From the NCBI GenBank assembly GCA_016278505.1, contig JADQBQ010000003.1, forward strand, positions 1 to 64,000: 64,000 nt of DNA. Direction: 5' to 3'. The translations under genes and the position numbers were made by a program. Shown one piece after another: positions 38,739 to 62,845 of this stretch. The DNA comes from Clostridiales bacterium (GTDB taxonomy: Bacteria > Bacillota > Desulfotomaculia > Desulfotomaculales > VENG01). Position 1 is the stretch's first letter. The number at the start of each line of letters is the position of its first letter. The notes below the pieces were generated by a model, which did not search any database, had not been told where the DNA came from, and saw nothing but the letters and a program-made list of their open reading frames with translations.

Positions 38739-38851
38739 TAATACTTTAGGCCAGCATGCCTTATCATCCCCTACTGTATTATGATAAAATATGTCTAATA
38801 AAATTTGAATATTCTCCACAAATCCACTTTTTACAACAGGACGTGGTTAAA

Positions 38852-40327
38852 TTGAATGACAAACTTTTAAGACCTATTACCGAGGCAACATACTTAACCA
38901 CGGGAAATGCCTGGCGTTACAGATCCATTTTGCGATATTTTTATATCCAGCACGAACGCCTGCGTCACTACCTATTTCCCGATGAAGTGCAGGAATATTT
39001 AAGTCAAAGCCCACACTTTCAGGATTACACTGAGGAACAGCTGCAGCAGGACCTGAGCCAGCTGGTGGAATGGAAAAACCTCATTCCCCGCCAGGATACA
39101 GGTAAGGTTAGCTCCATTCAGGAGTTTAAAAAGAAAAAATTTCGCTACCAGTGTACTCCTTACACCATAGAAATCGAACGTATGGTGCAAGGGCTGGAGC
39201 GGATGGGAGAGTCCTTTGGAGGTTCGCTGGAACGGACATTGTTTGATCGCTTACTGGAATCCCTGATGAAACTGGTTGCTTACCCGGACAGTAATTTATC
39301 CAATGAGGAACTGTATGTGCTCTGGGACGACCTTTACGGCAATTTCCGCAAGCTTACTGAAAATGCCACCGACTATCTGGCCCACCTGCAAAGTGAAAAA
39401 ATAGAAGAGATGATGATGACGGAGGCCTTCCTGAGTTACAAAGACGCCATTACCGAATACCTGCGCAATTTTATGACTGTACTACAGCGCACTTCTTTTC
39501 GTATTGAGGCGGTATTCGGGGATGTTTCTTCCGAATTAGTGGATCAGACAGCCAAAGGTCTGGCTGAATATTATTTGAGTATTCCTCGCCTGGACGAGCA
39601 ACCCTCAAAAGAAGAACTGAGAGAAAGGTACCGGCAGCAGTGGCACAGTATGAAAAGCTGGTTTCTGGGCCGGGCTGGAACGGAAAGCGACCTTTTATAC
39701 CTGCAAAATGCTACCACGGAAACCATTCGCCGGATGACCCGTTTTGCCCAGCGTATCGGTGAGCGGCACCATAACTTTAAAAGCCGCCGGCAGGACTACC
39801 TGCACCTGGCCGAATGGTTCTACAAAGTTAATGATATTAAAGAGGCGCATAATCTTTCAGCGTGTGTTTTTGGTGTTTTTCATACGCGGCACATCTATGC
39901 GTCCTCCAAGGATACCGAAGATATATATGCCGAATTGTGGCATCAACCGCCAACTAAATTAACTGTCAAGCCCCGGGTAAGAAATTACCGCGAAAAGACT
40001 AAGCCCGGAGCTGTAATCAGCCATAAAAAGGAAAAGGAGCAACAATTAGAAGATTTTTTGCGTCAAAAGGAAGCTGAGCAAAAGCTTGTAGAGCGGTTAA
40101 TCAGTAACAACCGCATTGTGCTCGGAAAACTGCCGGAGGTTGACCCTTATGTGCGCAAGACTTTACTTTACTGGATAAGTAAATGTATGAGTAGTTCCGA
40201 TTGGACTGCTAAAACCGAAACCGGACGTAAGTTCCAGCTTACCCGGCAGGATGAACGGGAAGTGACCTTAAAGTCGGAAGACGGTATATTGCAAATGCCC
40301 AACTATGTTTTAAAATTTCTGAGTTAG
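38852..40327 (+). CDS. jetA: Wadjet system protein JetA (TIGR02677 family)
   Basis: JetA is the kleisin subunit of the Wadjet SMC complex, which recognises and removes small circular DNA. About 491 residues. It opens MNDKLLRPITEATYLTTGNA and has the DEVQEYL and REKTKPGAVISHKKEKEQQ blocks with a helical, mainly charged sequence. The frame extends upstream to 38756, but that part overlaps a probable promoter and has no ribosome site; the TTG at 38852 with AGG 11 nt upstream fits better. The exact start is unsure. It is first in a jetABCD operon with 10-nt spacing or overlaps. Confidence 0.88.
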   Translation: MNDKLLRPITEATYLTTGNAWRYRSILRYFYIQHERLRHYLFPDEVQEYLSQSPHFQDYTEEQLQQDLSQLVEWKNLIPRQDTGKVSSIQEFKKKKFRYQCTPYTIEIERMVQGLERMGESFGGSLERTLFDRLLESLMKLVAYPDSNLSNEELYVLWDDLYGNFRKLTENATDYLAHLQSEKIEEMMMTEAFLSYKDAITEYLRNFMTVLQRTSFRIEAVFGDVSSELVDQTAKGLAEYYLSIPRLDEQPSKEELRERYRQQWHSMKSWFLGRAGTESDLLYLQNATTETIRRMTRFAQRIGERHHNFKSRRQDYLHLAEWFYKVNDIKEAHNLSACVFGVFHTRHIYASSKDTEDIYAELWHQPPTKLTVKPRVRNYREKTKPGAVISHKKEKEQQLEDFLRQKEAEQKLVERLISNNRIVLGKLPEVDPYVRKTLLYWISKCMSSSDWTAKTETGRKFQLTRQDEREVTLKSEDGILQMPNYVLKFLS

Positions 40328-40337
40328 GTGATGTCCC

Positions 40338-41543
40338 GTGGAAGGTGAAAAGAATACATACGGCTTTGATGAGGTGGCACGCGAAGCAGCGGAACACCTT
40401 TTAGAACAGTTTTGGATAATCAGGGACAAAGAGCCGGTAAAGTACCGTATGGTTCGGGACCGGGAGCAAGTGCTGCGCAATTATTTCCTGGAAAAGACGG
40501 GTTTCCGGCTGATTATGCACCGCCATTTTATTAAATTGGAGAAAGTGCCGGTACAACCCGAAACATGGATGGGTATACAAGCTTTCCGTACCCCCCGGGA
40601 TTATGCGGTTTTTTGCTGTCTTTTGGCTTTCCTGGAGAGCAAAACCGTAGATGAACAATTTTTACTATCTGACCTTTGCGAAGAACTGCAAAGCTTGTTT
40701 CCCAGTGAAGAAAGTCTGGACTGGACTCATTATGAGCACCGCAAATCACTGGTACGGGTCCTACAAACCGGTGTGGAGCTGGGAATTGTGCAACTGGTGG
40801 ACGGTGATATTGCGCAATTCAACTATTCTGAAAGCAGCGAAGTGCTTTATGAAGTTCCCGTGGTTTCGCGTTACTTTATGCGGTCTTACCCCAAAGATTT
40901 GCTGGAGTTTGAAACCAAAGAACAAATCTTGGCAGCCGAATGGTGGGGAAAGGAAGATATATCCGGGGTACAGCGCCGGCACCGGGTGTACAGGCAGTTA
41001 TTTCTATCTCCCGTCACTTACCGCAACGAAAAAAACGATTCTGATTTTCTCTATCTGCGCAACTTCCGCAATCGTATCCGGGAGGACATTGAAAGGCACA
41101 CGGAATTTCGATTTGAATTGTACCGTAATACAGCCCTACTAACCCTGCCGGAAAGAAAAGCCCGCTTTACCCTGTTCCCGGATAATAAGGCCATTTCCGA
41201 TATTGCCCTGCATTATGCTGCGGTAGTTCGGGAGCAGCTGGAAAAAGAAGAAATCCAAACGCAGCCAGATGGTACATTACGCGTGACACCCGTTGATTTC
41301 GAGGGTTTGGTGCGCCTGTGTAAAGAGCGGTACGGAGTAGGATGGAGCAAACAATACCGGGAAGGCACTGTCCCGGTAACGGCAAAGGAACTGCTGGAAC
41401 ATTTGACAGACTGGAAGATGGCTGACCGGGACGGAGAAACAGGGGTCATTATACTCTATCCTCTCCTGGCACGCCTTACCGGGGACTACCCCCGGGACTA
41501 TAAAGATAAAGTATTCCGTGAGGTGAATACCGGTGAAAAATAA
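40338..41543 (+). CDS. jetB: Wadjet system protein JetB (TIGR02678 family)
   Basis: JetB is the KITE-type winged-helix dimer that bridges the kleisin JetA and the SMC heads of JetC. The 401-aa protein starts at GTG 40338 behind AGGTGA. Blocks typical of the family are RYFMRSYPKDLLEFETKEQ and RYGVGWSKQYREGTV. It overlaps jetC by 11 nt, so synthesis is coupled. Confidence 0.9.
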   Translation: MEGEKNTYGFDEVAREAAEHLLEQFWIIRDKEPVKYRMVRDREQVLRNYFLEKTGFRLIMHRHFIKLEKVPVQPETWMGIQAFRTPRDYAVFCCLLAFLESKTVDEQFLLSDLCEELQSLFPSEESLDWTHYEHRKSLVRVLQTGVELGIVQLVDGDIAQFNYSESSEVLYEVPVVSRYFMRSYPKDLLEFETKEQILAAEWWGKEDISGVQRRHRVYRQLFLSPVTYRNEKNDSDFLYLRNFRNRIREDIERHTEFRFELYRNTALLTLPERKARFTLFPDNKAISDIALHYAAVVREQLEKEEIQTQPDGTLRVTPVDFEGLVRLCKERYGVGWSKQYREGTVPVTAKELLEHLTDWKMADRDGETGVIILYPLLARLTGDYPRDYKDKVFREVNTGEK

Positions 41544-44500
41544 ATGGCAGCTTAACCGGGCCGGGCTTCTAAACTTTTGGTACTACGATGATGAGGAATT
41601 TAATTTTTCCGGTGGCAAACTCCTTTTACGCGGGAGTAACGGCTCCGGTAAATCGGTAACCATGCAAAGTTTAATTCCTGTACTTTTAGATGGCAGGAAA
41701 AGCCCGGACCGCCTGGACCCTTTCGGCTCTAAGGCCCGCAGAATGGAAGATTACCTGCTGGGCGAAAAGGAAGTCACCAACAGAGATGAGCGTACAGGGT
41801 ACCTTTATCTGGAATACAAGCGCACAGGTTCGGAGCAATATTTAACCACAGGTATAGGGCTGCGGGCGAAGCGCCACAGCAACCTGGATTTCTGGGGTTT
41901 CATTGTGCTGGATAACCGGCGTATAGGCCAGGATCTTTTGCTGTATAAAACGGAGTACAGTGTGGAAGAAGGCAAGGAGCAAAAAATCCCCCTCACCCGC
42001 CGCGAGCTGGAAAACCGCCTGGAAACAGGGGGTAAAGTGGTTAAAACTCAGCAGGAATATATGGAACTGGTCAATAAGCACGTTTTTGGCTTTGAGTCCC
42101 CGGATGCGTACAAGGAACTCGTTAAGCTCTTGATCCAGCTCAGAAGCCCCAAATTATCTAAGGATTTTAAACCGACGGTAATTTATGAAATACTAAATGA
42201 ATCTCTGCCCGGCCTGTCCGATGAGGAACTACGTCCGCTGTCGGATACCATCGAAAATATGGACCAGACCAAGCAGCAGCTGGATATTTTACAGCGCGAC
42301 CGGGGTTCTCTGAAAAAACTCTGCCGGCACTACGATTTGTACAACCGTTTTATTTTAACCGAAAAGGCTAAAGGTTTTCAGCGGGCAGCAAAAAAACAAC
42401 GTGGTTTACTCACCCGTGGGGAAGAACTGGAAGAGAGCCTTAAAAACCTGGGGGAGCAATCAGAACAACTGGCGGGCACAATGGAAAAAGTGCGCCGGGA
42501 AGAGGCAGTTTTAAAGCAGGAACAAAATGAATTAAAAGACCATGATGTGTTTAAGGCTGAAGAGAAAAAGGGAGAAATTGAAAAACAGATTAGCAGCACC
42601 AAGGAAACCTTAAAACGCAAAAATGAGGCTTTAGACCAAAAGAAAGCTGCTGAGGCAAAGTGGCAGGGCTATCACGAGGCGGAAGAAACCAAAATGGCCC
42701 GTGCCGAAAAGGACATCGAAAACATTCTGTACGAGCTGGAAGACACCGCGGACGAAACAAAGTTTTCCGACCACCAAATCGCTGCCCAGGAGTTTGAAAA
42801 CAATTACAGGAAAAACTTTGCTTTTGACCTCTGGAAAAAAGATGCCCGTACATATAAAGAAAAGTTGGAGCATGTTTTACGGACTCTAAGGGAGCAGAGC
42901 CGGATCAAAGAGCGGCATAAAGATGCCGACCGGGAACTGGCCGAGGCCCAAAAAGATTTAGACCTCAAACGGGAAGAAACCCGCAAATGGGAAGACTTTT
43001 TTCTAGAAGAAAAGGATAGCTTCTTAGCCGCTTTTCACCAGTGGCTTAAAGATAATAAAGTGCTGGAGCTGTCACCCGAGGAAATTCAGCTCACCTCCCA
43101 GCGCATTACACAGTTTTATGAGCCATACCAGGCAGCAGAAGTGCGGGAGACAGTTGATACCGCCTACAGCCGCTACAAGAATGATATCAACGAGGAAATA
43201 GTAACTAAAAAACACCGGCTTAAAATAAAGGCGGAAGAAATAGATGTGAAGCAGGAAGAGTTGAAGAAATGGAAGGAAATGACTGATCCCGAGCCCGGAC
43301 GCCATCCGGATACCGTGGAGTCCCGTACCCACCTGGATAAAAACAGTGTACCCTACATGCCTTTCTTTGCCGCAGTTGAATTTCAGGCCTGGGTCACCCA
43401 GGAACAACGCGAGCGGTTGGAGGCGGCGGTAACACAAATGGGCCTTTTGGACGCTTTGATTGTGCCCCAGGCCCATATCAAAAACGTGGGTCAGTATGAC
43501 AGGGTGATTAAACCCGAGCCTCAATTCCTGGCCAGTACTCTGGCAGATTATCTTTATCCTACACCGGTGGAAGGTAGCGGCGTTACCGGCGAGGACATTG
43601 ATAATGTTCTCCGCAGTGTCTTGATTGATAATACTGAACAGGGGCCGGCCGGGCTAAGGGAAGACGGCACTTATTACATTTCTCTGCTCCGGGGGCAAGC
43701 GCCCCGGGAGGCAAGTTCAATCTATATCGGCAAGGAATCCCGTAAACAATACCGGACACAGGAAATGACACGCATAACCAGGGAATTGGAAAATTTACAG
43801 CAGGAGCACCGGGAGTTGGAAACGGATAGGGCACAATCCGAAACAGAGCTGCAGCAGTTAAATACTGAGTATAATCATTTGCCCGTTGATCGAGATGTGG
43901 CTGAAGTATATAAAAATCTATCTTCCCTACGGGATGAAGTGAAACTGCGCCTCAAAGAAGTCGAAAATAAAAATGAAAAGCTAAAAAACGTCCTGGAAGA
44001 ACTACAGCATGTAAGCCAGCGGCTCAGGGACCTGGCCCGGGATATGACCCTGGAACTGGGCGAGGGTGCTTATGAGGCCGCGGGGCGTGCAATGCAGGAC
44101 TATCTAGGCTATCTGCAGGACCTGGAACTTACCTATAAGGATTATATCAACAGCCGCAGCTTAATGCAGCAGTATGAGCACAGCCGCTCTGAAGCAGCGG
44201 AAGACGCAGACGATTTAAAGGGCGAAATCAATGTTTTAAATGGCGAATTGGATAAGTACTCCATGCACCTCGAACAGGTTAAAAAACAGCTGGAGGAAAT
44301 GGGAGCCGAGGAAATAAGGGCACGTATCAGCCAGGTGATAAAAAGGCTCAGTGAAATTCCAAAAGAAATGCTAAAAATACAAGACAGCATTTCCAATACC
44401 AAAAACAGTATTGAAAGTACCACCAGGGATATCGAAAACAACAAGTCAGAACTGTACTTTGCCGGTGAAATGTACAGGCTGTGGAAGCAATCCTTCCAAT

Positions 44501-45705
44501 CCGATGTCAACCTGGGGTTTGTGGAACAAGACGTACAGTGGTCAGAAGAAAAAGCCCCCGAACTGGCTAAAGACATTTTACAGCGGCACCAGGAACTTTT
44601 GACTGGTAATCTAACCAGAGAAAAAGTAAATGATAGGCTGAACCAGGCCTTCTACCAGGAGCAGGCGGTATTAGTGGAATACCGTTTGACCCAGCAAGAT
44701 ATATTTGAACTGCAGGACCTCCCGCAGACGGATGACAATGAGACCTTCGAGGCCCAAATGGCAACTCTGCGCCAAACCGCCAGGAGAGTACAGCTTTTAA
44801 TGGAATATGAGGGCAGCATGGTCAGCCCTTACTATGTACTAAACAGAATAGATAATGATATTGCACTGCAAACAGAAATCCTCAGTGATAAAGACAAAGA
44901 GCTTTATGAAGAGATCATCATGAACAGTGTAGGCAGGATAATTCGCAACCGCATTAATCGTGCCGAGCAATGGGTGAAAAAGATAGACCGGCTGATGCAG
45001 CAAAGAAACACTTCCAGCGGCCTTACTTTCTCTATCCGGTGGAAACCCCGCACCGCTGAAGAGGAAGAAGAAATGGACACCCGGGATTTGGTAACCCTGC
45101 TGCGCTCCGACCCACGTATTTTAAAAGAAGAGGACATCAATTCGGTAACCCGTCATTTTCGCTCTAAAATAGAACGGGCCAAGGAAGCGCTGGAGGAAAA
45201 GGGTTATGGGGAAACCTTACACCAGGTAATCAAGGAAATACTCGATTACCGCCGCTGGTTTTCCTTTACCCTTTATTACCGGAAAGAGGGAGAGCAGCGG
45301 AAAGAATTAACCAATAATGCATTCTTCACCTTCAGCGGCGGGGAAAAGGCCATGGCCATGTACATTCCCCTCTTTTCCGCGGCTTATTCCCGCTATTTAG
45401 AGGCCCGAGATGACGCGCCATACATTATTTCCCTGGATGAAGCCTTCGCCGGAGTAGACGAAAACAATATAAGGGATATGTTCGACCTGGTGGAAAACCT
45501 GGGCTTTAACTACATCATGAATTCCCAATCCCTGTGGGGAGACTACGAAACAGTTTCGTCCTTGTCCATTTATGAGCTGGTGCGTGCCAAAAATGCGCCG
45601 TATGTTACCGTTGTACGCTACTACTGGGACGGCAAGGTAAGGCGTCTTTTACATTCCTTTTCCGAACAGACCGAAGAAGCTGTGCCCTTGTCGGGACAAA
45701 TGTAA
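41533..45705 (+). CDS. jetC: Wadjet system SMC-like ATPase JetC (TIGR02680 family)
   Basis: The motor of Wadjet, a 1390-aa SMC/MukB-like ATPase that extrudes DNA loops. Walker A is LLLRGSNGSGKSVTMQ at about residues 30-45. Long heptad coiled coils run from about 270-600 and 740-1010 with a hinge between (ALIVPQAHIKNVGQYDR). The ABC signature FTFSGGEKAMAMYIP is near 1266 and Walker B APYIISLDEAFAGVDENN near 1296. Starts at GTG 41533. Both ends of the ATPase are intact, so the motor looks functional. Confidence 0.95.
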   Translation: MKNKWQLNRAGLLNFWYYDDEEFNFSGGKLLLRGSNGSGKSVTMQSLIPVLLDGRKSPDRLDPFGSKARRMEDYLLGEKEVTNRDERTGYLYLEYKRTGSEQYLTTGIGLRAKRHSNLDFWGFIVLDNRRIGQDLLLYKTEYSVEEGKEQKIPLTRRELENRLETGGKVVKTQQEYMELVNKHVFGFESPDAYKELVKLLIQLRSPKLSKDFKPTVIYEILNESLPGLSDEELRPLSDTIENMDQTKQQLDILQRDRGSLKKLCRHYDLYNRFILTEKAKGFQRAAKKQRGLLTRGEELEESLKNLGEQSEQLAGTMEKVRREEAVLKQEQNELKDHDVFKAEEKKGEIEKQISSTKETLKRKNEALDQKKAAEAKWQGYHEAEETKMARAEKDIENILYELEDTADETKFSDHQIAAQEFENNYRKNFAFDLWKKDARTYKEKLEHVLRTLREQSRIKERHKDADRELAEAQKDLDLKREETRKWEDFFLEEKDSFLAAFHQWLKDNKVLELSPEEIQLTSQRITQFYEPYQAAEVRETVDTAYSRYKNDINEEIVTKKHRLKIKAEEIDVKQEELKKWKEMTDPEPGRHPDTVESRTHLDKNSVPYMPFFAAVEFQAWVTQEQRERLEAAVTQMGLLDALIVPQAHIKNVGQYDRVIKPEPQFLASTLADYLYPTPVEGSGVTGEDIDNVLRSVLIDNTEQGPAGLREDGTYYISLLRGQAPREASSIYIGKESRKQYRTQEMTRITRELENLQQEHRELETDRAQSETELQQLNTEYNHLPVDRDVAEVYKNLSSLRDEVKLRLKEVENKNEKLKNVLEELQHVSQRLRDLARDMTLELGEGAYEAAGRAMQDYLGYLQDLELTYKDYINSRSLMQQYEHSRSEAAEDADDLKGEINVLNGELDKYSMHLEQVKKQLEEMGAEEIRARISQVIKRLSEIPKEMLKIQDSISNTKNSIESTTRDIENNKSELYFAGEMYRLWKQSFQSDVNLGFVEQDVQWSEEKAPELAKDILQRHQELLTGNLTREKVNDRLNQAFYQEQAVLVEYRLTQQDIFELQDLPQTDDNETFEAQMATLRQTARRVQLLMEYEGSMVSPYYVLNRIDNDIALQTEILSDKDKELYEEIIMNSVGRIIRNRINRAEQWVKKIDRLMQQRNTSSGLTFSIRWKPRTAEEEEEMDTRDLVTLLRSDPRILKEEDINSVTRHFRSKIERAKEALEEKGYGETLHQVIKEILDYRRWFSFTLYYRKEGEQRKELTNNAFFTFSGGEKAMAMYIPLFSAAYSRYLEARDDAPYIISLDEAFAGVDENNIRDMFDLVENLGFNYIMNSQSLWGDYETVSSLSIYELVRAKNAPYVTVVRYYWDGKVRRLLHSFSEQTEEAVPLSGQM

Positions 45706-45739
45706 AACCTCAGGAACCGGTTGCGGGAGTTGAATTAAC

Positions 45740-47119
45740 TTGGATCATCAAAATACCTCTATATTAGACAATGCTGTATTAGCCAATGCGGTGCAATTCT
45801 TTAAAAGCGAAGCCGGTTTTCACCGGCTTTTAAATGCTTTCATCAAAAGATATCAAAGCCTGGGCCGGATTGGCGGCAGTGTACGGCTTGCCAACCCTAC
45901 CTACCAGGAGCAAGAGGCCATCTCCAGGCTTTTACGCAAGGATTTAAGTAGCAATAAATCTATCACTGTCAAATTATCTAATTTTGAGCAAGAACTAGAA
46001 AATACAAAGTTCGCCGGGATCTTATTAAAAGATTTGCTGGATGGGTATGCCGGTTATGAAATATTCACCAAAACGGAGATGCAGAAACGCTACGAGGAAG
46101 AGAAAGATAATTTTTTACAACACTTAGCCGGTATTTGTCCTCAATTATACTGCCGGCAATGGCTGGAACATATACAAACCAAAGGCGCCGGAACCCGTGG
46201 TATTCACCAGGCTTACGATGACGATCCCCAAATCCTAGAGGACAGGTTAAAAAACGTATTAAAAGCACTTGCCCGCCTGCCGTCGCCTGGTACGGGAAAA
46301 GACCCCGCCCAGTTTCAAAGGCTACCGGTATTTGCCAATGGCGTAACCTGTGACCCGCACGGGCTCGACCTGGATACAGCCCAGGGAAGGTTTTTTATTG
46401 CGGCGCTACAGTTTATTCGCAGCCAACAAGATGATAGTTACCTGGTAGGCTCCTCCCCGGCAGCAGAAGAGATAAATGAACTTTTAGGTTACTTCGGTAT
46501 TATCCGGGATGACCTCTTAAATTTTGTCACCTGTGCCGGCATTTTGGCCTTTGATGCTGCCGGCGCTGTCCAAAAAATGTGGAATAATGCCTGGCAGAGC
46601 GGAGCGGTAATGAATGTACCCCTAAGAGAGCTGGTAAAGTCAAATGCTTTTATGCCCGGCATCTCCTGCACCGCTCCGGAAAAACAAAAAGTCATTTTCG
46701 TAGTTGAAAACTCAGGCGTATTTTCGGAAGTGGCGGACTGTTTCACTGACCGCTTACTTCCGCCATTGGTATGTACTCACGGCCAGGCTAAACTAGCGAC
46801 ATTATTACTACTGGACCGTTTAGCAGCAAACGGTACCACTATTTTTTATTCCGGGGACTTTGACCCTGAGGGGCTGCAAATGGCCCAGCGCCTGGCCAGG
46901 CGTTACGGAGAAAATTTAAAGCTTTGGCGGTATGACGCAGGTGACTACGAGGAAAGCATCTCAGAGGTGGTACTTTCCCCGGAAAGGTTGAAAAAACTTA
47001 ACGGTATTAACCTTCCCGGTATCATACAGGTGAAAGATAGAATTAATTCCACACACCGGGCCGGATACCAGGAGTACCTGGTACCCAGACTTGTCGAGGA
47101 CATTAGGAAATATATATGA
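45740..47119 (+). CDS. jetD: Wadjet system nuclease JetD (TIGR02679 family)
   Basis: JetD is the Toprim nuclease that cuts the plasmid once the JetABC motor has extruded it. The 459-aa protein starts at TTG 45740 behind GCGGGAG. The Toprim Glu is in VIFVVENSGVFSE (about residue 320), and the D-x-D motif in IFYSGDFDPEGLQM (about 370). The 34-nt spacing from jetC fits one operon. Order jetABCD and families define type I. The gene ends 20 bp from the convergent ABC-F stop. Confidence 0.93.
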   Translation: MDHQNTSILDNAVLANAVQFFKSEAGFHRLLNAFIKRYQSLGRIGGSVRLANPTYQEQEAISRLLRKDLSSNKSITVKLSNFEQELENTKFAGILLKDLLDGYAGYEIFTKTEMQKRYEEEKDNFLQHLAGICPQLYCRQWLEHIQTKGAGTRGIHQAYDDDPQILEDRLKNVLKALARLPSPGTGKDPAQFQRLPVFANGVTCDPHGLDLDTAQGRFFIAALQFIRSQQDDSYLVGSSPAAEEINELLGYFGIIRDDLLNFVTCAGILAFDAAGAVQKMWNNAWQSGAVMNVPLRELVKSNAFMPGISCTAPEKQKVIFVVENSGVFSEVADCFTDRLLPPLVCTHGQAKLATLLLLDRLAANGTTIFYSGDFDPEGLQMAQRLARRYGENLKLWRYDAGDYEESISEVVLSPERLKKLNGINLPGIIQVKDRINSTHRAGYQEYLVPRLVEDIRKYI

Positions 47120-55354: not shown

Positions 55355-56060
55355 TTACAATGATGTAGTCAAAAAACAAGTAAGGGTATGGAAGCTTCGC
55401 TCGTTGAAAAATGAAGGCTCGTTAAGCAGAATGACGAAGGGCATACAAGTCAGGATAAACCAAAAGATACCCCAACGTGTTCACGCTGCAATTACCCATA
55501 CCGTAAAAGGTATCATCCATTCTGTTATATTTAGCTTAAAGTTCATCCCCAGTGAACCACCACGCACCGGATTAGATTTAGAAGCGCGTGATAGACTAGC
55601 CTGGCGTACCCTTGTAAAATATAGAAAAATTGCTTCCCTGGAAGGAGCAGGCACCGGTGCCGGTGGATTTCTACTGGGCATGGCCGACTTCCCGGCTTTA
55701 ATTGCCATCAAAATGCAAATGCTATTTGAATTGGCGCATATTTATGGTTACGACACGCGTAACAAAGAGGAACGTTTTTTCCTGTTGTACATATTTCAAA
55801 TCACCTTTACTACAGCAGACCAGCGAAAACGTCTTTTCCCAATTATTGAAGGGTGGAATGAAGTCGCCTTAACCGACATTGACTGGGAGCAATTTCAAAA
55901 GGATTATAGAGACTCACTGGACCTGCGCAAGATGCTGCAGCTAATTCCCGGGGTGGGAGCTATTGTAGGAGCCTGGGCTAATTATGGGTTATTGCGAGAG
56001 CTCGGCATAGCTGCTATAAACTGTTTTCGAATACGCCACCTGGGCTTAAATGAACTATAA
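55347..56060 (+). CDS. EcsC family protein
   Basis: A 237-aa protein starting at ATG 55347, overlapping the hexokinase stop by 8 nt. The EcsC block is GAGTGAGGFLLGMADFPALI, then KMQMLFELAHIYGYD, with a hydrophobic second half (AIVGAWANYGLLRELGIAA). EcsC of Bacillus is linked to an ABC exporter and secretion; here no such genes are close. The role beside a hexokinase is unknown. Confidence 0.85.
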   Translation: MIDYNDVVKKQVRVWKLRSLKNEGSLSRMTKGIQVRINQKIPQRVHAAITHTVKGIIHSVIFSLKFIPSEPPRTGLDLEARDRLAWRTLVKYRKIASLEGAGTGAGGFLLGMADFPALIAIKMQMLFELAHIYGYDTRNKEERFFLLYIFQITFTTADQRKRLFPIIEGWNEVALTDIDWEQFQKDYRDSLDLRKMLQLIPGVGAIVGAWANYGLLRELGIAAINCFRIRHLGLNEL

Positions 56061-56094
56061 AGAAAAATGGTTCCGTTAGACAAGGAGTGGTTTA

Positions 56095-56235
56095 ATGGGG
56101 TTTTTTGACTGGTTAATTTATTATGGATATGATGAAGACGGCTATGATGGAGAAGGGTATGACCGGGATGGTTACGACCGGGATGGCTATGACCGAGAGG
56201 GCTACGATAAAAAGGGCAACAAAAAGCACCCCTGA
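56095..56235 (+). CDS. 46-aa protein of GYDxx pentapeptide repeats
   Basis: ATG 56095 follows AAGGAG. After MGFFDWLIYY come six pentads of the form GYDxx: GYDED, GYDGE, GYDRD, GYDRD, GYDRE, GYDKK; then GNKKHP. The repeats are Tyr/Asp/Gly-rich, as in intrinsically disordered or spore-surface proteins. It is too short for ordinary gene tracks. The stop codon sits in the loop of the terminator that follows. It lies 35 nt after ecsC and is probably in that operon. Confidence 0.7.
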   Translation: MGFFDWLIYYGYDEDGYDGEGYDRDGYDRDGYDREGYDKKGNKKHP

Positions 56236-56250
56236 TGGGTGCTTTTTTTA
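56220..56250 (+). terminator. Terminator overlapping the end of the GYD-repeat gene
   Basis: AAAAAGCACCC (56221-56231) pairs with GGGTGCTTTTT (56237-56247); the loop contains the TGA stop and the T-run continues to about 56249. Confidence 0.85.
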
Positions 56251-56320
56251 ATGCCTTTCAGGTAACGTTTTCCTCTATTGTCGAATATTATAACAAATGA
56301 TTACTGGAGGTGAATTTATT

Positions 56321-56659
56321 ATGTCAGAAGAGAAGAAAGAAACTATGAAAACAGCTCAGTACCAAACAAATTACGAACCACTGGACAGCATGTACCCGGA
56401 TGTTTATTACCGTTGTTACCCGTATGTAAAACAGGCTTGTGAAATGTACGATAATCCCGATAACCCTGGTTTTTACCCGTATCCCACCAGAGCAGCTGTC
56501 GAACAGATGACTGAATATGTTTATCAAAGAGTCGATGCCGGCGGCTACACACAATCAATGGATAGGCAATATTACGGCGGAGGTATTCTAAGGCCTTTAA
56601 TAGGCATTCTGGTTATTCGAGAGTTATTAAGAAGAAGAGGACCCTACTACTATTATTAA
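56321..56659 (+). CDS. Tyr-rich hypothetical protein, 112 aa
   Basis: ATG 56321 follows TGGAGGTG. Tyr and Pro are frequent (YPDVYYRCYPYVKQAC, YPYPTRAAVEQMTEYVY), with a C-terminal Gly/Arg segment GGGILRPLIGILVIRELL and an end RRRGPYYYY. It resembles small spore-associated or surface proteins in composition. I do not recognise a family. It follows the GYD-repeat gene after a terminator. Confidence 0.65.
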   Translation: MSEEKKETMKTAQYQTNYEPLDSMYPDVYYRCYPYVKQACEMYDNPDNPGFYPYPTRAAVEQMTEYVYQRVDAGGYTQSMDRQYYGGGILRPLIGILVIRELLRRRGPYYYY

Positions 56660-56666
56660 TCCAACG

Positions 56667-56936
56667 CTAAATATTCATAAAGGCATCCGTATCAAATTTA
56701 ATGGCACAGGGTTCATGTTTTTCCTGCCTGTCCTTTTCATCGGAGTAGATTAATTCTCCCGATGCCAGCATTTCTTCCACCTGTTCCAAACGCTTGTCCA
56801 AATTGGTCAGCGTTCGCTGCAAAGATTCCATTAGCCCTAGTGCTTCACGCATCCTTTTACTACGAGAACCCGGAGGATACTGCCATATCCAGTGGTCAGA
56901 CGGCAGGCGAAGTTCCAAACGCTTATCCTTGGTCAT
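56667..56936 (-). CDS. Small RHH-like partner of the ParM-like protein (ParR candidate), 89 aa
   Basis: ATG 56936 has GGAAGGAGG 10 nt upstream; the frame extends to 56975 but that part overlaps the parM-like stop. The start KDKRLELRLPSDHWIWQY and the RSKRMREALGLMESLQ helix suggest a ribbon-helix-helix DNA-binding fold. A coiled coil follows (RTLTNLDKRLEQVEEMLASG). It is immediately downstream of the actin gene, as parR is in type II partition loci. Confidence 0.6.
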   Translation of the reverse strand: MTKDKRLELRLPSDHWIWQYPPGSRSKRMREALGLMESLQRTLTNLDKRLEQVEEMLASGELIYSDEKDRQEKHEPCAIKFDTDAFMNI

Positions 56937-56964
56937 GCTACGGAATCCTCCTTCCTTTAACTGG

Positions 56965-57936
56965 TTAGTGTGCATTCACTACCTTCAAAAACCCTGCTGC
57001 GTTTGCCCACTGGGGTTCAGGTAATACGTAAGCTTCAGGGAAAAGCGAAGTCATTGAACGCAGCATTTCGGCACCACCGCCTGCCAGGTAGACCTTCTTA
57101 ATGAAAGCCAGCCTGTCACCGAGGGCAGCCTTCACCTGATCTGATATAGCCAGTGCTATATCAGTACGCGCCTGGTTGATGACCCCGGAAAAGTCTCTTT
57201 CCTTACCGTAATAAGTTATCCTACCGGACTGAGAAATAATTTCCGGCACCCTTATGGCTGCCAGTGGCATTCCAGTGGAAGACAGGAACTCCTGGGCTAC
57301 AATCTCGTAAATGGCCTGCACACCCGTTTCTACCGAACCACAGAGACTGGATACCGGCTTCACATTGCCTTCAGCCACTTCTGCTGTAACATAATCGGTA
57401 GTCTTTTGCCCGATATCCACCAACAGAACCATTCCGTTCTGTGGTAAATCAGGTGCCATAAACAAGGCTCCCGCCCCTTGAGGATAAACCACCGCTTTAC
57501 CGAAACTAATTCTTTTCAGCTTATTTCCGTTTACAGACACCTCTGCATGCAGGCCCTCCAGATGATTTTTTAACTCTTCCCTCTGGGTACGATAATAGGC
57601 TACCGGCAGGCCTGCCACCACCATCGCGCCCGGGCCGGTATTTAAAACCCTGGCCGCGGCCAAGGCCAGAATGTCATGGTTAGGATGGCGGTGTTTCTCA
57701 CGGTCCAAAGAAAAACTTGCCCCGTGCCCTTCCCGTAAGGCCATTTCCCCTACAAAATATTTACTTATTGTACCGTCAACCCGGCGTATTTCCACTACAT
57801 GGCCACTATCACTTGGGGAGGATAGGTCCACCAGTGAAAGTTTCCTAAAAGGCGCCACAACGGAAGGGATAATGACTCTATTACTCGTGGTTATACTTTT
57901 GACATGGCTGTATCCTATATCCATAGCGATATGCAT
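56965..57936 (-). CDS. ParM/StbA-family actin-like ATPase
   Basis: A 323-aa actin-fold protein. Phosphate motif 1 is MHIAMDIGYSHVKSIT. Phosphate motif 2 is VLLVDIGQKTTDYVTAE. The adenosine motif is VYLAGGGAEML. This is the ParM/StbA/ALP type, which forms filaments to segregate plasmids or move phage DNA. It begins at ATG 57936 behind AAAGGGAG. It forms an operon with the small RHH-like gene. The promoter carries two SOS-box-like palindromes. No plasmid replication gene is visible. Confidence 0.86.
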   Translation of the reverse strand: MHIAMDIGYSHVKSITTSNRVIIPSVVAPFRKLSLVDLSSPSDSGHVVEIRRVDGTISKYFVGEMALREGHGASFSLDREKHRHPNHDILALAAARVLNTGPGAMVVAGLPVAYYRTQREELKNHLEGLHAEVSVNGNKLKRISFGKAVVYPQGAGALFMAPDLPQNGMVLLVDIGQKTTDYVTAEVAEGNVKPVSSLCGSVETGVQAIYEIVAQEFLSSTGMPLAAIRVPEIISQSGRITYYGKERDFSGVINQARTDIALAISDQVKAALGDRLAFIKKVYLAGGGAEMLRSMTSLFPEAYVLPEPQWANAAGFLKVVNAH

Positions 57937-57991
57937 TGAATACCACTCCCTTTTACATTGATGTTTTTCAACCTCTATCTATTATCTTCCA

Positions 57992-58038
57992 GAACCGGTG
58001 TTCTATTTATTATAGCGAGAACAAACGTTCTCAGTCAA
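57992..58038 (-). promoter_or_regulatory. ParM-like operon promoter with two SOS-box-like palindromes
   Basis: On the reverse strand TTGACT (58038-58033) and TATAAT (58014-58009) have an 18-nt spacer. GAACAAACGTTC (58019-58030), matching the Gram-positive LexA core GAAC-N4-GTTC including RNRY, fills the spacer. GAACCGGTGTTC (57992-58003) lies on the start site. Binding would block transcription until DNA damage. Confidence 0.75.
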
Positions 58039-58160
58039 TGCATTTTTTACTGGATTAGCACCCACCATATAGATTTTACATCAATTTGTTAAATCCTTCC
58101 TCCGCTTACTAAATAATTCCACACAGATTTTGACGCCCAAATATTTAAAAAACCTATAAT

Positions 58161-58367
58161 TCGACAGTTTTCCCGAAGGTTATTGGAATTGATCCTGCAA
58201 TTCTTGATAAGCTGGGCACCCCATTTTTGACCACCAAAGATGAGGGTACAGGGTTAGGACTGGCAGTCTGTTATAGCGTAGCTGCCAGGCATAATGCAAT
58301 TATTGATGTAAAGACAGGCGCTGAAGGTACCACTTTCGTCGTTAGATTCCAGGTACCCCGGTATTAA
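58161..58367 (+). pseudogene. C-terminal remnant of a histidine kinase (HATPase_c)
   Basis: An open stretch without a start reads GIDPAILDKLGTPFLTTKDE, then GTGLGLAVCYSVAARHNA, and GAEGTTFVVRFQVPRY before a stop at 58365. This is the F- and G2-box end of an NtrB/Kin-type sensor kinase. The sensor, His and N-box parts are gone. The rest of the 505-bp gap 57937-58441 contains the SOS-box promoter and no other gene. Confidence 0.75.
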
Positions 58368-58441
58368 TTATAAAGGCCCCCTGAGAGAAATCCCCAGAAG
58401 GCCTCGTGACAATCAATCTATTAATCGGTACAGCATCCCGA

Positions 58442-59416
58442 TTAGGAGTGAAGATAAGCAGGGACTACCTTAGTCCATCCTTTTACCTTACCGTATTTTA
58501 GAAAAGCACCGTAAAGGTTTAGTTCCTCTTTCAATAAATCAAAAAACATTTTACGCACGGAATCATTTCTGACTGCTTCTATTACAGCTCTGGCATGAAG
58601 GTCAATAGCCGACTGAATCCCCGTTAATATAGTTCTGTAAACAAACTTGTCCTCCATTGCCTCAGGATCAATTACACTTTCCACTTTTGCCGGCGGGCGT
58701 TCCGGCAGTGGAATATCGTATTTTAAAGCCTTTTTTTCCAGCATAGTAATCTGGTCTTTTAACCGGGATAATCCTTGTTTTAATAGCATTTTGAAGTCGG
58801 GATCATGTACAAATTCTAAAAATAAATTGGTCAGCTCTATTTGGTCATAGCGAGTGTTTACATGATCCCAAATGTGATTTGCTTCACTTACGGATACTTG
58901 TTCCTTTTCTTTAGTCTGAGCGGATTTGTACGCCGGTTCAATATCAGTCCATCCTTTTATTTTCCCAAACTTGTATAAATTTTCAAAGTTTTTCAGGTGT
59001 CCTTCAAAAAATTTAACAAACATTTCCATTAGTTTATCATTGGTAGTAGTTGTTCGAACGGAACGACTTAGTGAATACATCTCAGCTACAATGTCGGAAA
59101 ATATTCTCCTAAAAATGAACTTATCAGTCATTGACGGCAACTTTTGGCTAATTTTTATCTCTGACGGTGGTCGCTCCGGTACTTTAACTTTATACTTTTG
59201 GGCCTTTTCTTCCAGGATATTTACCTGCTTTTGAAAGTCATTAACCATTTCTGATACTAAGATAACAAAATCACGATCATGGATAAAATTTCTATAATAT
59301 TTGCCCGATTCTACGCTAATATATCTGAGTCTCAGTGTGTTCCATATGTTAAATGCTGTTACCGAATCAATCATCTCTGCTTTATTTTTGTTGGCTTTAA
59401 AGATCGAGATTGGCAC
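58442..59416 (-). CDS. DUF3231-like protein with two internal repeats
   Basis: A 324-aa helical protein made of two homologous halves of about 155 residues. Each half has IW-N/D-x-L/V-x-x-RY, a FxHDxDF block (NFIHDRDFVIL and EFVHDPDFKML), a helix with PERPP (KVPERPPSEI and PLPERPPAKV), and ends GKxKGWT. This layout fits DUF3231, found in spore formers and thought to form four-helix bundles. Starts at ATG 59416. Function unknown. Confidence 0.75.
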   Translation of the reverse strand: MPISIFKANKNKAEMIDSVTAFNIWNTLRLRYISVESGKYYRNFIHDRDFVILVSEMVNDFQKQVNILEEKAQKYKVKVPERPPSEIKISQKLPSMTDKFIFRRIFSDIVAEMYSLSRSVRTTTTNDKLMEMFVKFFEGHLKNFENLYKFGKIKGWTDIEPAYKSAQTKEKEQVSVSEANHIWDHVNTRYDQIELTNLFLEFVHDPDFKMLLKQGLSRLKDQITMLEKKALKYDIPLPERPPAKVESVIDPEAMEDKFVYRTILTGIQSAIDLHARAVIEAVRNDSVRKMFFDLLKEELNLYGAFLKYGKVKGWTKVVPAYLHS

Positions 59417-59498
59417 CCAACTAAGTCTCCTATCTGTTTACATTATCTCATAGTATGCACAGATGGAAACATAATTTATGCTTTGGTTTAAAATTTCT

Positions 59499-59972
59499 CT
59501 AGTTACCCTGAGCTCTCCGTCGAATCTCCTGCCATGTTTCTTCAGCTAACTGGTCGAATTGAGTTTTTGTCGCTGTGTTGCCTTCCTGTTCTAAACGTTT
59601 ATTAAATAGGTGGTCATAAATTGCATGCTGCATGGCTTTAATGGCCAATAATGAACAATGTTTTTTACCTTCCGGCAGCCCGCCCAGGTAATCAACAACA
59701 TCATCATCGGTTAATCGTAAGGCAAAATCTATGCTCTTTTTCCTGGCTATTTCTGTAACCACACTGGAGGTTGCTATAGCACCGGCACATCCATAAACCC
59801 TAAATTTAATCTCTTTTATAATATTATCTTCAATCCGCAGGGTTATTTCACATATATCTCCACACCCTGGTTCTCCAATCTTCCCATAACCATTTCCATC
59901 CTTAGCCACGCCCACATTACGGGGGTTTTGGAAATGTTCCAGCGTTAACTCGCTATACTCTAATGTACTCAT
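59499..59972 (-). CDS. NifU/IscU-like iron-sulfur scaffold protein
   Basis: A 157-aa protein. Scaffold blocks are LEHFQNPRNVGVAKDGNG, EPGCGDICEITLRIED, and VYGCAGAIATSSVVTE. The third Cys is in KKHCSLLAIKAMQHA. All three scaffold cysteines are present. It overlaps nothing and follows the NifX-like gene by 5 nt. It probably assembles or donates Fe-S clusters. The C-terminal helical tail (about 30 residues) is longer than in IscU. Confidence 0.88.
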   Translation of the reverse strand: MSTLEYSELTLEHFQNPRNVGVAKDGNGYGKIGEPGCGDICEITLRIEDNIIKEIKFRVYGCAGAIATSSVVTEIARKKSIDFALRLTDDDVVDYLGGLPEGKKHCSLLAIKAMQHAIYDHLFNKRLEQEGNTATKTQFDQLAEETWQEIRRRAQGN

Positions 59973-59977
59973 AACCG

Positions 59978-60343
59978 TTAGCAGTGACCGTCACAGCCAT
60001 CATGCTGGCCATCAGGATGGGTACATAGACTTTCTCCCGATTGAAGCTTTCCACTCACAAAATCGTTCATAATCTGGTCAACCTGCCCTGATGCCCCTAT
60101 AATGGGCTTGATATTATTTTCAGCAAATAAGGCCAGTGCTTTTTGACCCATGCCGCCAGCAATTACACAATCTACATTTAACCCCTTCAAATAGGGAGGC
60201 AAGAAACCGGGCTTGTGCCCCGGGTTGGTCACATTTTGAACATTTTCCGACCGGCCTTCTACAACGTCAAAAAGTACATATTCCTGACATTTACCAAAAT
60301 GTTGAGCCACATAACCACCATCAACAGCGATTGCCACTTTCAT
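59978..60343 (-). CDS. Dinitrogenase iron-molybdenum cofactor/NifX-NafY-like protein
   Basis: A 121-aa protein of the NifX/NafY/MTH1175 family. The fold start MKVAIAVDGGYVAQHFGKCQ and GLNVDCVIAGGMGQKALALF are typical. The C-terminus is Cys/His-rich (HPDGQHDGCDGHC), which may bind metal. In non-diazotrophs such proteins bind Fe-S clusters with MRP/NifU-like partners. It is cotranscribed with the NifU-like gene. No nitrogenase gene is present. Confidence 0.87.
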   Translation of the reverse strand: MKVAIAVDGGYVAQHFGKCQEYVLFDVVEGRSENVQNVTNPGHKPGFLPPYLKGLNVDCVIAGGMGQKALALFAENNIKPIIGASGQVDQIMNDFVSGKLQSGESLCTHPDGQHDGCDGHC

Positions 60344-60527
60344 ATCTATTCCTCCTGTAAATTATTTATAAAACTTTGGTACCAAAATTCTATTACTATT
60401 ATGAACATATGTCAATATATAAGTAAACTATTTCTGTAGACAATCACCTAAATTGGTGGGATGAGCTGGCAATCTTCGATTACAGGAGGCTTATCAGAGG
60501 GAAGGGGATAAGAGCGGCCGGCATAAT

Positions 60528-60621
60528 TTAAACCTTATGCAAGGTTTTAACCAGCTCTACCGGTACCTCATAGCGGGCCGCGAATTCATAAACGGTTTCT
60601 CCTGGGTATGGGTAGTGTCAG
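60528..60621 (-). pseudogene. LysM-like fragment
   Basis: The reverse strand reads YPYPGETVYEFAARYEVP then VELVKTLHKV and a stop. The P-G-E-T-V-Y-x-x-A-x-R-Y-x-V pattern is a single LysM repeat. It has no start and a stop lies just upstream. Part of the 521-bp gap 60344-60864. Confidence 0.45.
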
Positions 60622-60659
60622 TATCCTTTTTCAATTCTAAATAGCCGGCCGCCTCTAAT

Positions 60660-60841
60660 AGCATTTCATACTCCATAAGCTGGGCACGGCCCGGGTGGTG
60701 ATCTTCGACGACGTTGGAAAAGAAAAAATAACCGACTGGGTGCAGGTGCAGTACTACCGCATCATCAACCAGCGGTATGCCCTCACCAGGGACAGGCAGG
60801 TCTATGTGCAGGCAGAGGACTACCGGCTGGCGGGCCGGTGA
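60660..60841 (+). pseudogene. Truncated reading frame of unknown function
   Basis: The frame opens after a stop near 60655 and runs to TGA at 60839. It reads RVVIFDDVGKEKITDWVQVQ, then YYRIINQRYALTRDRQVY. The codon use looks coding but there is no start or ribosome site. It ends 23 nt before the next gene. Probably the 3' end of a decayed gene. Confidence 0.4.
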
Positions 60842-60864
60842 TGCCAGTAAAAAGGGGAGATACC

Positions 60865-61236
60865 ATGAACATAATCAAGGTGGATATCCAAACCGGCGAG
60901 GTTTTGGAAAATAAACTGCGACAACTTTGGGCCCGCGAGTATGGGTTCCAGAACCCAACAGAGCCGGCCAAAGCAAATAACCCGTCCCGTCATTTTCACC
61001 TCATGGAAGGCCACCGGCCGGAAAAGGTAGACCCTACCCTTATGAACCGTGTAAAGAATTTTAGCAGCAAAATCAACAGAAAGTCCCATTCCTGGCAAGA
61101 GGACGAGCATTACCAGCTGGCAGTGCTAATGGGGCGGGAAAAGCTGCCCTACAAACAGGCCGGTCTTCACCTGCCCCGCAGCCCCGACGCCTGCAGGTAT
61201 ATGTACCGGAAGATGAAAAACGCGGGGGTAATCTAA
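60865..61236 (+). CDS. Hypothetical protein with a Myb/SANT-like C-terminus, 123 aa
   Basis: ATG 60865 follows GGGGAG. The N-terminus MNIIKVDIQTGEVLENKL is followed by a basic middle. The C-terminal 45 residues, SWQEDEHYQLAVLMGREKLP then YKQAGLHLPRSPDACRYM, look like a SANT/Myb-type helix-turn-helix (W-x5-H-x-L-x7-Y). It may bind DNA. No family is certain. Its neighbours are gene remnants. Confidence 0.55.
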   Translation: MNIIKVDIQTGEVLENKLRQLWAREYGFQNPTEPAKANNPSRHFHLMEGHRPEKVDPTLMNRVKNFSSKINRKSHSWQEDEHYQLAVLMGREKLPYKQAGLHLPRSPDACRYMYRKMKNAGVI

Positions 61237-61465
61237 CGCCTTGTCATTGTACGGAGTCCCTTTTCCCTTAAATTTCAAGGCCCCGTAAACTAACTTTATA
61301 AGGCATGTCCGTACAATCTTACTGACACCAAAACCCCATTAACCAAGGTTCCGTACAAAATTAACCAACAACAAAGTAAACCATGTTTAACACATTCACA
61401 GAACACCTGTTTTACCCATAAGAACTCAGCTTTTAATATTAGGTTCCGCCGCACAAACTTAATAA
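61237..61465. other. AT-rich spacer, nothing recognised
   Basis: The first 230 bp of the 554-bp gap 61237-61790 are AT-rich and I see no gene, repeat or clear hairpin. A truncated DUF1659 gene follows from 61466. Confidence 0.4.
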
Positions 61466-61687
61466 TTATATATCGTACATTACACAGTACTTCGCCTGCG
61501 GTTCAACGTAGGTACCGACACCCAGGGAAACCCGGAATTCAGCAACAAGAACCTTTACCACATCAAGCCTGCCGCGCTGGATCCAGATCTACACGAAGTG
61601 GTCGCAGCACTGGCCGGCCTGGTGCAGGATCCCCTGGACTCTGTAACACGCATTGACACCGGGGAACTGGTTAACCAGGTGGTATAG
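61466..61687 (+). pseudogene. DUF1659 protein lacking its N-terminus
   Basis: After an in-frame TAA (61463-61465) the frame reads TVLRLRFNVGTDTQGNPEFS, NLYHIKPAALDPDLHEVVAA, and LVQDPLDSVTRIDTGELVNQ. This is the DUF1659 family. About 10 N-terminal residues and the start codon are missing. It may be expressed from a non-standard codon, but truncation is more likely. It is upstream of its usual partner DUF2922. Confidence 0.7.
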
Positions 61688-61790
61688 AAAAATTTGCCTG
61701 ATGCGCTGCAAACCACGGTAATTATGTGAACGGAATACAATAGGGGCGGGTGTTTGAGTTTACCCGTCCTGCAAGGAAAGGAGGGAAACT

Positions 61791-62021
61791 ATGCCCACTA
61801 CCACTCAGACCCTGCGTATGGTGTTTAGGAGCCAGGGGGGAACCAGCATGACCATCAGCCTGGACAATCCCCGCACCGATCTCACTGCTGCTGAGATTGA
61901 AGCGGTTATGGATACCATCATCGCCAAGAATATGTTCAGCACCAACGGCGGGGACCTAGCATCCAAGTACGATGTGAAAGTAATCGACAAAACTACCAAC
62001 GATCTTTACGATCCTGCATAG
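61791..62021 (+). CDS. DUF2922 family protein
   Basis: A 76-aa protein behind AAAGGAGGG. It opens MPTTTQTLRMVFRSQGGTSM and has DNPRTDLTAAEIEAVMDTII and DVKVIDKTTNDLYDP, typical of DUF2922. Such genes occur with DUF1659 and yvrJ in many Firmicutes; function is unknown. The three are close in order here. Confidence 0.85.
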   Translation: MPTTTQTLRMVFRSQGGTSMTISLDNPRTDLTAAEIEAVMDTIIAKNMFSTNGGDLASKYDVKVIDKTTNDLYDPA

Positions 62022-62080
62022 TCACACGAACAGGGGAGGGCGCGAGCCCTCCCTGATTTATAATTGGGAGGGATGTGAAT

Positions 62081-62293
62081 ATGGAAGAAATTCTTCAGGG
62101 AATAGCAAATGTGGGCTTTCCCATTGTAGTGGCAGCTTACTTACTGGTACGCATTGAAGGAAAATTGGACGAGCTTACGATCAGCATTCACCAGCTGGCC
62201 TGGGTTGTCGGTGAAAAACTAGATGCAGGGGGGGTAGCAAACCATGCAACACACTCATATAATTGTGCACCACACCGGTGCCGAGGAAAATGA
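62081..62293 (+). CDS. YvrJ family small membrane protein
   Basis: ATG 62081 has GGGAGGG 8 nt upstream. The start MEEILQGIANVGFPIVVAAY, then LLVRIEGKLDELTISI, matches the YvrJ family: a single membrane helix and a short amphipathic tail. The 70-aa frame overlaps the amidase gene by 50 nt. It belongs with DUF1659/DUF2922. Confidence 0.85.
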   Translation: MEEILQGIANVGFPIVVAAYLLVRIEGKLDELTISIHQLAWVVGEKLDAGGVANHATHSYNCAPHRCRGK

Positions 62294-62762
62294 CGCGGAG
62301 CAGGTGAAACAGTACCATTTATCCCTGGGTTGGAGGGATATAGGCTATAACTATGTAATCGAACGCAGCGGCCAGGTAGTCGAGGGTCGTCCGCTGGACC
62401 TTCCCGGAGCCCACTGCCGGTCCGGGGATATGAATCATTGCTCCATTGGCGTAGCAGTAATCGGAAACCTGGAAAAGAACCCATTGCCGCAGGTACAGCA
62501 GGAAGCCCTATGGGAGCTTTTACAGGAGCTGGCCGACCGGCACCGCATCCCGTTGGAAAACATTCTTGGCCACAGGGAAGTACCGGGAGCGGCAACAGCC
62601 TGCCCGGGTAAGTTTATGGATATGGAATTGCTGCGGAACAAGCAACAAACACCACATCTTTGGCGAGTCCAGGTAGGAGCTTTCAGCTCCCGAACAAGAG
62701 CAGAAGATTATGCCCGGCAGTTACATCAGCAAGGAATTGATGCTTTTGTTGTCCCAGAGTAA
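62244..62762 (+). CDS. N-acetylmuramoyl-L-alanine amidase with C-terminal SPOR domain
   Basis: A 172-aa zinc amidase of the Amidase_2/PGRP fold. Zn ligands are in IIVHHTGAEE, and GHREVPGAATACPGKF (His and Cys). NYVIERSGQVVEGRP is typical. Residues about 136-172 form a SPOR-type peptidoglycan-binding domain (WRVQVGAFSSRTRAEDYARQ). It has no signal peptide, so export would need a holin-like partner such as YvrJ, or it acts in a spore or phage context. ATG 62244 follows a G-run. Confidence 0.88.
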   Translation: MQHTHIIVHHTGAEENDAEQVKQYHLSLGWRDIGYNYVIERSGQVVEGRPLDLPGAHCRSGDMNHCSIGVAVIGNLEKNPLPQVQQEALWELLQELADRHRIPLENILGHREVPGAATACPGKFMDMELLRNKQQTPHLWRVQVGAFSSRTRAEDYARQLHQQGIDAFVVPE

Positions 62763-62793
62763 GGATTTTACCGATTATATCTTAATATGATAT

Positions 62794-62845
62794 GAAAACA
62801 TCTAGGGTATTCCTTTTGGGAAAACATTTGGGGTAGTCCTTTGAG
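62794..62845 (+). repeat. Imperfect 26-bp tandem duplication
   Basis: Unit 1 (62794-62819) and unit 2 (62820-62845) share GAAAACAT, GGGTA and TCCTTT blocks, 21 of 26 positions identical. It begins the 357-bp gene-free gap 62763-63119. Confidence 0.55.

Follow-up and report, generated by a model that had tools for sequence, protein, structure and literature searches.

Does the SOS response control a ParM/ParR-like pair that resides on a bacterial chromosome, and if so, what would such a pair do for the cell? The question is raised by a locus in a 3.92-Mb genome, where parM and a small parR-like gene form one minus-strand transcription unit behind a TTGACT-18-TATAAT promoter that contains two palindromes. 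A sequence-only reading had described the pair as chromosome-borne, and the genes, the promoter and both palindromes were found at the positions it had given. The reading that we favor, with a probability of roughly 0.7, is that this is a chromosomal ParM-ParR operon that would be repressed by LexA, expressed in the SOS response and engaged in moving iteron-bearing DNA after damage.

The features of the locus are collected in Table 1. The window, by which we mean the whole stretch of 64,000 nucleotides that was analysed, belongs to a contig of 64.7 kb carrying trp, fatty-acid-type and NifU/NifX genes. About 9.5 kb from the partition-type pair, window positions 38756-47119 (+) encode all components of a Wadjet type II system (JetABCD), which defends against plasmids, and six 15-bp repeats at window positions 56108-56222 (+) encode, in frame, a Y-D-x-x-G repeat within a short frame. 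An Rfam search of 56000-62800 returned no match.

Table 1. Features of the parMR locus and of related elements in the window
Feature	Position	Strand	Basis
parR-like adaptor gene, 89 aa, 28 bp after parM	56667..56936	-	position, conserved tail
parM, 323-aa chromosomal actin-like ATPase of ParM type	56965..57936	-	Pfam, sequence, fold
Shine-Dalgarno-like AAAGGGAGTG of parM	57944..57953	-	sequence
Candidate LexA operator 2 (start-site box), GAACACCGGTTC on - strand / GAACCGGTGTTC	57992..58003	.	5 nt past -10, over expected start site
-10 hexamer TATAAT, spacer 18 nt	58009..58014	-	sequence
Candidate LexA operator 1 (spacer box), GAACGTTTGTTC on - strand / GAACAAACGTTC	58019..58030	.	exact palindrome in spacer, 4 nt before -10
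-35 hexamer TTGACT	58033..58038	-	sequence
Promoter block homologous to C8 LexA-HTH-only promoter (L024:7501-7559)	57992..58049	-	78% over 59 bp, E=4e-5
Histidine-kinase remnant adjoining the parM promoter	58179..58364	+	C-terminal ATPase-domain fragment, rest of gene absent
Three CCGTACAA iterons (61247, 61309, 61351), candidate detached parC	61247..61358	.	cluster, C8 homology
Third LexA-like box CAGAACACCTGTTTTA	61399..61414	.	top LexA matrix score in window; aligns with C8 box L024:7989
Partial copy (90%) of C8 cassette: 5'-truncated DUF1659, DUF2922, YvrJ, SPOR-domain amidase	61487..62749	+	homology

The ParM gene and its small partner

The parM product matches the Pfam families ALP_N (E=2e-28) and MreB-like_C (E=4e-30) and, at sequence level, the ParM of pCBH (E=1.8e-23). 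Its AlphaFold model (pLDDT 89.6) retrieved pCBH ParM (TM 0.84) and the chromosomal Dh-cParM1 (TM 0.85) as the best Foldseek matches, with CorM/CorR as one further structure match. Nucleotide-site residues are invariant across 11 orthologues. Both the ParM fold and the intact nucleotide-binding residues that characterize a ParM-type actin-like ATPase are accordingly present.

For the partner gene, a start at 56936 (89 aa, conserved, with a good RBS-like AAGGAGGA upstream) is more likely than one at 56975, which would give 102 aa and an overlap with parM. Neither Pfam nor NCBIfam contained a family matching this ORF, and its model (pLDDT 77) gave no match in Foldseek. The protein has an N-terminal strand and helices that, in the model, are consistent with a ribbon-helix-helix fold, a coiled coil and a C-terminal FDTDAFMNI tail. 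We identify it as ParR-like because of its position beside parM, shared by its homologues in most relatives, and because the N-terminus and an FDxDAFM-type C-terminal tail are conserved among these homologues. Another ParR-like gene, 30% identical to the window ParR, is present elsewhere in the genome (G000:C26:8662-8913, L104), in a locus where no ParM was found.

Chromosomal ParMs (cParMs) are already known from a description published in 2025 (PMC12270681). The window pair resembles them in its chromosomal ParM fold, in having a small partner similar to ParR and in the presence of several copies per genome, the window parM being one of three ParM genes. Orthologues of ParM were found in 34 of the 113 genomes of the same order that formed our comparison set (a class-wide search yielded no additional genomes). 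In a phylogenetic tree the window ParM clusters with a paralogue on contig C22 and with a single genome of the same family (support 96/97), and the ParM clade is, judging from these sequences, chromosomal and inherited vertically within the order.

This placement bears on whether the pair serves a resident prophage, as had been suggested from the sequence, or an integrated plasmid, by moving the excised element after SOS induction. A precedent is AlpAC of the Corynebacterium glutamicum prophage CGP3, likewise an actin-like protein with a DNA adaptor, which transports the DNA of its prophage and responds to mitomycin C by induction (PMC4446434); furthermore, tRNA genes are located 4 kb away. 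However, AlpAC is prophage-borne and acts early in phage induction (PMC4446434), whereas the window pair is not phage-borne and has LexA boxes directly in its promoter. No integrase, terminase or capsid gene was recognized among the ORFs read on the window contig, and the linked phage or replication genes and close phage or plasmid relatives that mark a prophage or plasmid module were not found here. Phage and plasmid relatives of ParM are about 25-28% identical, the best plasmid relatives about 26% and phage relatives at most about 28%; only three relatives, all distant, derive from viral contigs. Given these low identities and the grouping with its own paralogue and a same-family genome, we rejected a prophage or plasmid origin and consider service to such an element highly improbable. 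A repair-linked role, which the sequence-only reading also raised, is conceivable.

Boxes at the promoter and the SOS regulon of the order

The promoter hexamers agree with the consensus at 11 of 12 positions, and the arrangement proposed from the sequence, with one palindrome filling the spacer and the other over the start, was borne out. These palindromes are the only two exact GAACN4GTTC occurrences in the window; because 0.7 are expected and 16 of 100 shuffles reach at least two, their number by itself is not significant.

To score the boxes, a LexA matrix was built only from the lexA promoters of relatives and of the genome itself, with no input from the parM locus. The best positions in 64 kb were 61399 (18.2), 58017 (16.8), 48992 (12.6) and 57990 (12.3), ranking the spacer box second and the start-site box fourth (fifth in the first version of the matrix). 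Per 64 kb, 0.03 sites are expected at the score of 61399 and 0.21 at that of the spacer box, compared to 2.25 for the start-site box, whose score taken by itself does not exceed chance. In the first version, the two parM operators scored 16.1 and 12.0, the genome's own lexA boxes 17.6 and 13.8 and its recA box 20.3. The top position corresponds to a third LexA-like box, which outscores both parM operators.

The arrangement of the pair is more informative. Searching the 113 genomes for two boxes 13-18 nt apart yielded 40 strand-matches, against 6 for a reversed control pattern. More specifically, the dinB promoter of 16 genomes consists of a box, 3-5 nt, a TATAAT-like -10 and a second box, with the pair directly upstream of dinB (one representative product reaches 567 bits with the NCBIfam Pol IV model, cut-off 381). 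The window promoter has this same layout, with an offset of 4 and the spacer box at the position of the first dinB box; the dinB promoters, however, drive a translesion polymerase and not a cytoskeletal pair. Chance palindromes were rejected, since the pair architecture is significant even though the count alone is not.

The genome's own SOS genes carry comparable sites. Its lexA boxes are CGAACACACGTTT and CGAACATATGTTT, its recA box is CGAACAAGTGTTTT and its dinB box GAACTAATGTTT, while in relatives of the same order CGAACAAnTGTTTT-like boxes precede the matched HTH segment of lexA by about 80-95 bp. The core SOS boxes of the genome are mostly CGAACN4GTTT, whereas the parM boxes read AGAACN4GTTCT, a form common at dinB in relatives. 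GAACN4GTTT/C is the LexA motif that was searched in Clostridium difficile, in which LexA binding was measured (PMC4234289). That both palindromes fit the LexA core, as read from the sequence, agrees with the dinB layout in the order, the matrix ranks and the boxes of the genome's own SOS genes.

Two full-length lexA genes are present (G000:C29:42546 and G000:C23:129849), each with its own box. By inspection both LexA proteins retain the Ala-Gly cleavage site and the Ser/Lys positions, and both look cleavable. Two features expected of a member of an SOS regulon are present, a candidate promoter operator matching the motif of the clade and an apparently cleavable LexA in the same genome. Because of the dinB layout in 16 genomes, the boxes at the genome's own lexA, recA and dinB and the cleavable-looking LexA proteins, we regard LexA control of parMR as well supported in silico.

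Such control does not extend to the orthologues that we examined. No boxes were found upstream of other ParM loci, neither at about 30 loci searched by pattern nor at 34 searched by matrix (overlapping sets), and SOS control of ParM conserved across the order was rejected. Since about 30 other ParM loci are without boxes, SOS control looks lineage-specific, and selection on it cannot be argued from conservation.

Among described systems, soj of C. difficile is a segregation-related gene that likewise has a LexA site, but it encodes a ParA-type ATPase and has a single site 226 bp upstream, outside the high-affinity gene set (PMC4234289). The main text of the cParM description contains neither the term SOS nor the term promoter (PMC12270681), and unlike the cParMs the window operon has candidate LexA operators, a 28-bp gap and no iterons between its genes. 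The literature searched, which covered few subscription papers, yielded no description of a ParMR system outside phages under LexA. What appears to be new here is SOS-type control of a chromosomal ParMR pair, the function of which we infer.

The sister locus and the origin of the promoter

Paired boxes with this geometry occur in only two places in the genome, the parM promoter and contig C8. On C8, a promoter of the same type is followed by a gene for a 74-aa protein (L024:7593-7814) that consists of the LexA DNA-binding domain only (Pfam E=1e-13), without a protease domain, then by a third box and an orphan parR. The product of this orphan gene is 74% identical to the window ParR and has an identical IKFDTDAFMNI tail. 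DUF1659, DUF2922 and amidase genes diverge from the C8 promoter.

The partial copy of this cassette in the window has lost, relative to C8, about 690 bp corresponding to the LexA-HTH gene and two boxes, as well as the start of DUF1659. The cassette DUF1659-DUF2922-YvrJ-amidase(SPOR) is duplicated near LexA boxes (the C8 copy at L024:5965-7355). As a guess, the small YvrJ protein and the amidase could be a holin/endolysin-like pair and possibly an SOS-linked lysis cassette. In another genome of the order (L073), a pair of boxes and two LexA-HTH-only genes in tandem (L073:1504-1936) come after DUF1659-DUF2922-YvrJ; because of this same association, the link between cassette and LexA boxes predates the species. 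Short LexA-HTH proteins recur across several genomes of the order.

Homology of the parM promoter to the C8 promoter suggests promoter duplication and, together with the deleted cassette copy, points to an arrival by duplication and recombination. The SOS promoter of parMR was thus probably gained within the lineage, and the histidine-kinase remnant beside it fits a breakpoint.

The same observations (the homologous promoter block, the breakpoint zone with the kinase remnant and deleted cassette copy, and the lack of conserved SOS boxes at parM in relatives) would also be expected if recombination with a C8-type cassette had captured a working SOS promoter neutrally, with no selected role. Yet both operators and the promoter have remained intact despite divergence around them (78% for the promoter block and 74% for parR), and the two ParR copies have the same tail. 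We consider neutral capture unlikely.

The C8 locus also raises the possibility that the main regulator is not LexA acting in a plain SOS circuit but the LexA-HTH-only protein, either as an activator or as a non-cleavable competitor. This protein retains the LexA DNA-binding domain and has the two-box layout in its own promoter, and it may stand beside LexA boxes as does gp6 of GIL01, a LexA homologue and activator (PMC6182141). On the other hand, gp6 activates the late genes of a tectivirus, and its binding site, over the -35, is a different one (PMC6182141), while the C8 gene adjoins a chromosomal orphan parR. The two-box layout is moreover common to the dinB promoters of 16 genomes, and the small protein could modulate expression without replacing LexA. 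We judge this alternative distinctly improbable and retain LexA as the likely repressor.

Candidate parC sites and the proposed mechanism

A palindromic parC has been reported for Cb-cParC (PMC12270681). Among the relatives, a repeated octamer is present in the 240 bp after parM at 21 of 28 loci (p<0.05 compared to shuffles), often as a clear 12-bp palindrome, for example GTATCCGGATAC, GGTACCGGTACC or CTTACCGGTAAG, with a locus-specific sequence. In most relatives of the order, locus-specific palindromic iterons of 10-12 bp occupy the space between parM and parR (L107, L110, L111, L113, L115, L120, L028, L031-L035, L039-L044 and L054). We read these gap palindromes as candidate, and probable, parC sites of chromosomal ParMR systems.

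The search for parC-like repeats that had been proposed for the pair was thus productive in the gaps of relatives but not in the window operon itself, where the 28-bp gap leaves no room for iterons and the promoter region contains none. Because parC repeats adjoining the genes were looked for and not found, we do not claim full ParCMR membership; the pair would work like a ParMR pair. Candidates were found at a distance. CCGTACAA, the iteron of a Desulforudis parM-parR gap (L120), occurs 100 times in the window genome and clusters (at least three within 260 bp) in only two places, 3.2 kb from parMR in the window and at C8:47943-48151, before the orphan parR. A triple arises in 0.3% of random placements; the rate expected by chance is at least this high, because the octamer was chosen after both places were seen, and the two clusters count as one observation because they are homologous to each other. 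We consider the CCGTACAA clusters candidate parC sites of the ParR pair.

Iterons also offer a different explanation of the promoter palindromes, which could be parC sites at which ParR would shut down its own transcription, in the manner of plasmid par loci, with no role for LexA. The palindromic iterons of 10-14 bp at the parMR loci of relatives, the presence of palindromes at both loci with this type of parR and the iteron-free gap in the window are in keeping with it. But the iterons of relatives have a conserved centre and are located between parM and parR, whereas the parM boxes vary at the centre and are located in the promoter; dinB, a gene unconnected with ParR, is preceded by the same boxes; and a separate iteron family, CCGTACAA, marks the window type of parR. 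ParR autorepression at these sites is very unlikely.

Under the favored LexA-controlled reading, two LexA dimers would flank the -10 box, obstructing RNA polymerase. RecA on damaged DNA would trigger self-cleavage of LexA, upon which parM and parR would be co-transcribed. ParM would assemble into nucleotide-driven filaments, and the cell would probably make such filaments upon DNA damage. ParR would bind iterons, for which the two CCGTACAA clusters are the best candidates, and its C-terminal tail would couple them to the filament ends, so that iteron DNA would be pushed or held apart after damage. LexA binding, induction by damage, filament formation, binding of ParR to CCGTACAA and movement of chromosomal DNA are each predictions from sequence. 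A more far-reaching version, in which ParM filaments and the two ParR adaptors would separate or position damaged chromosomes at iteron loci, making this the first non-phage ParMR system of a LexA regulon, is tentative and on the doubtful side.

The role of chromosomal ParMs is an open question according to their 2025 description (PMC12270681). The SOS promoter gives one chromosomal ParM a testable trigger, DNA damage, and thereby a route to a phenotype, while the iterons in the parM-parR gaps of relatives provide concrete parC candidates for the whole order. If the favored reading is true, a cytoskeletal system that moves DNA would be linked directly to DNA damage with no phage involved.
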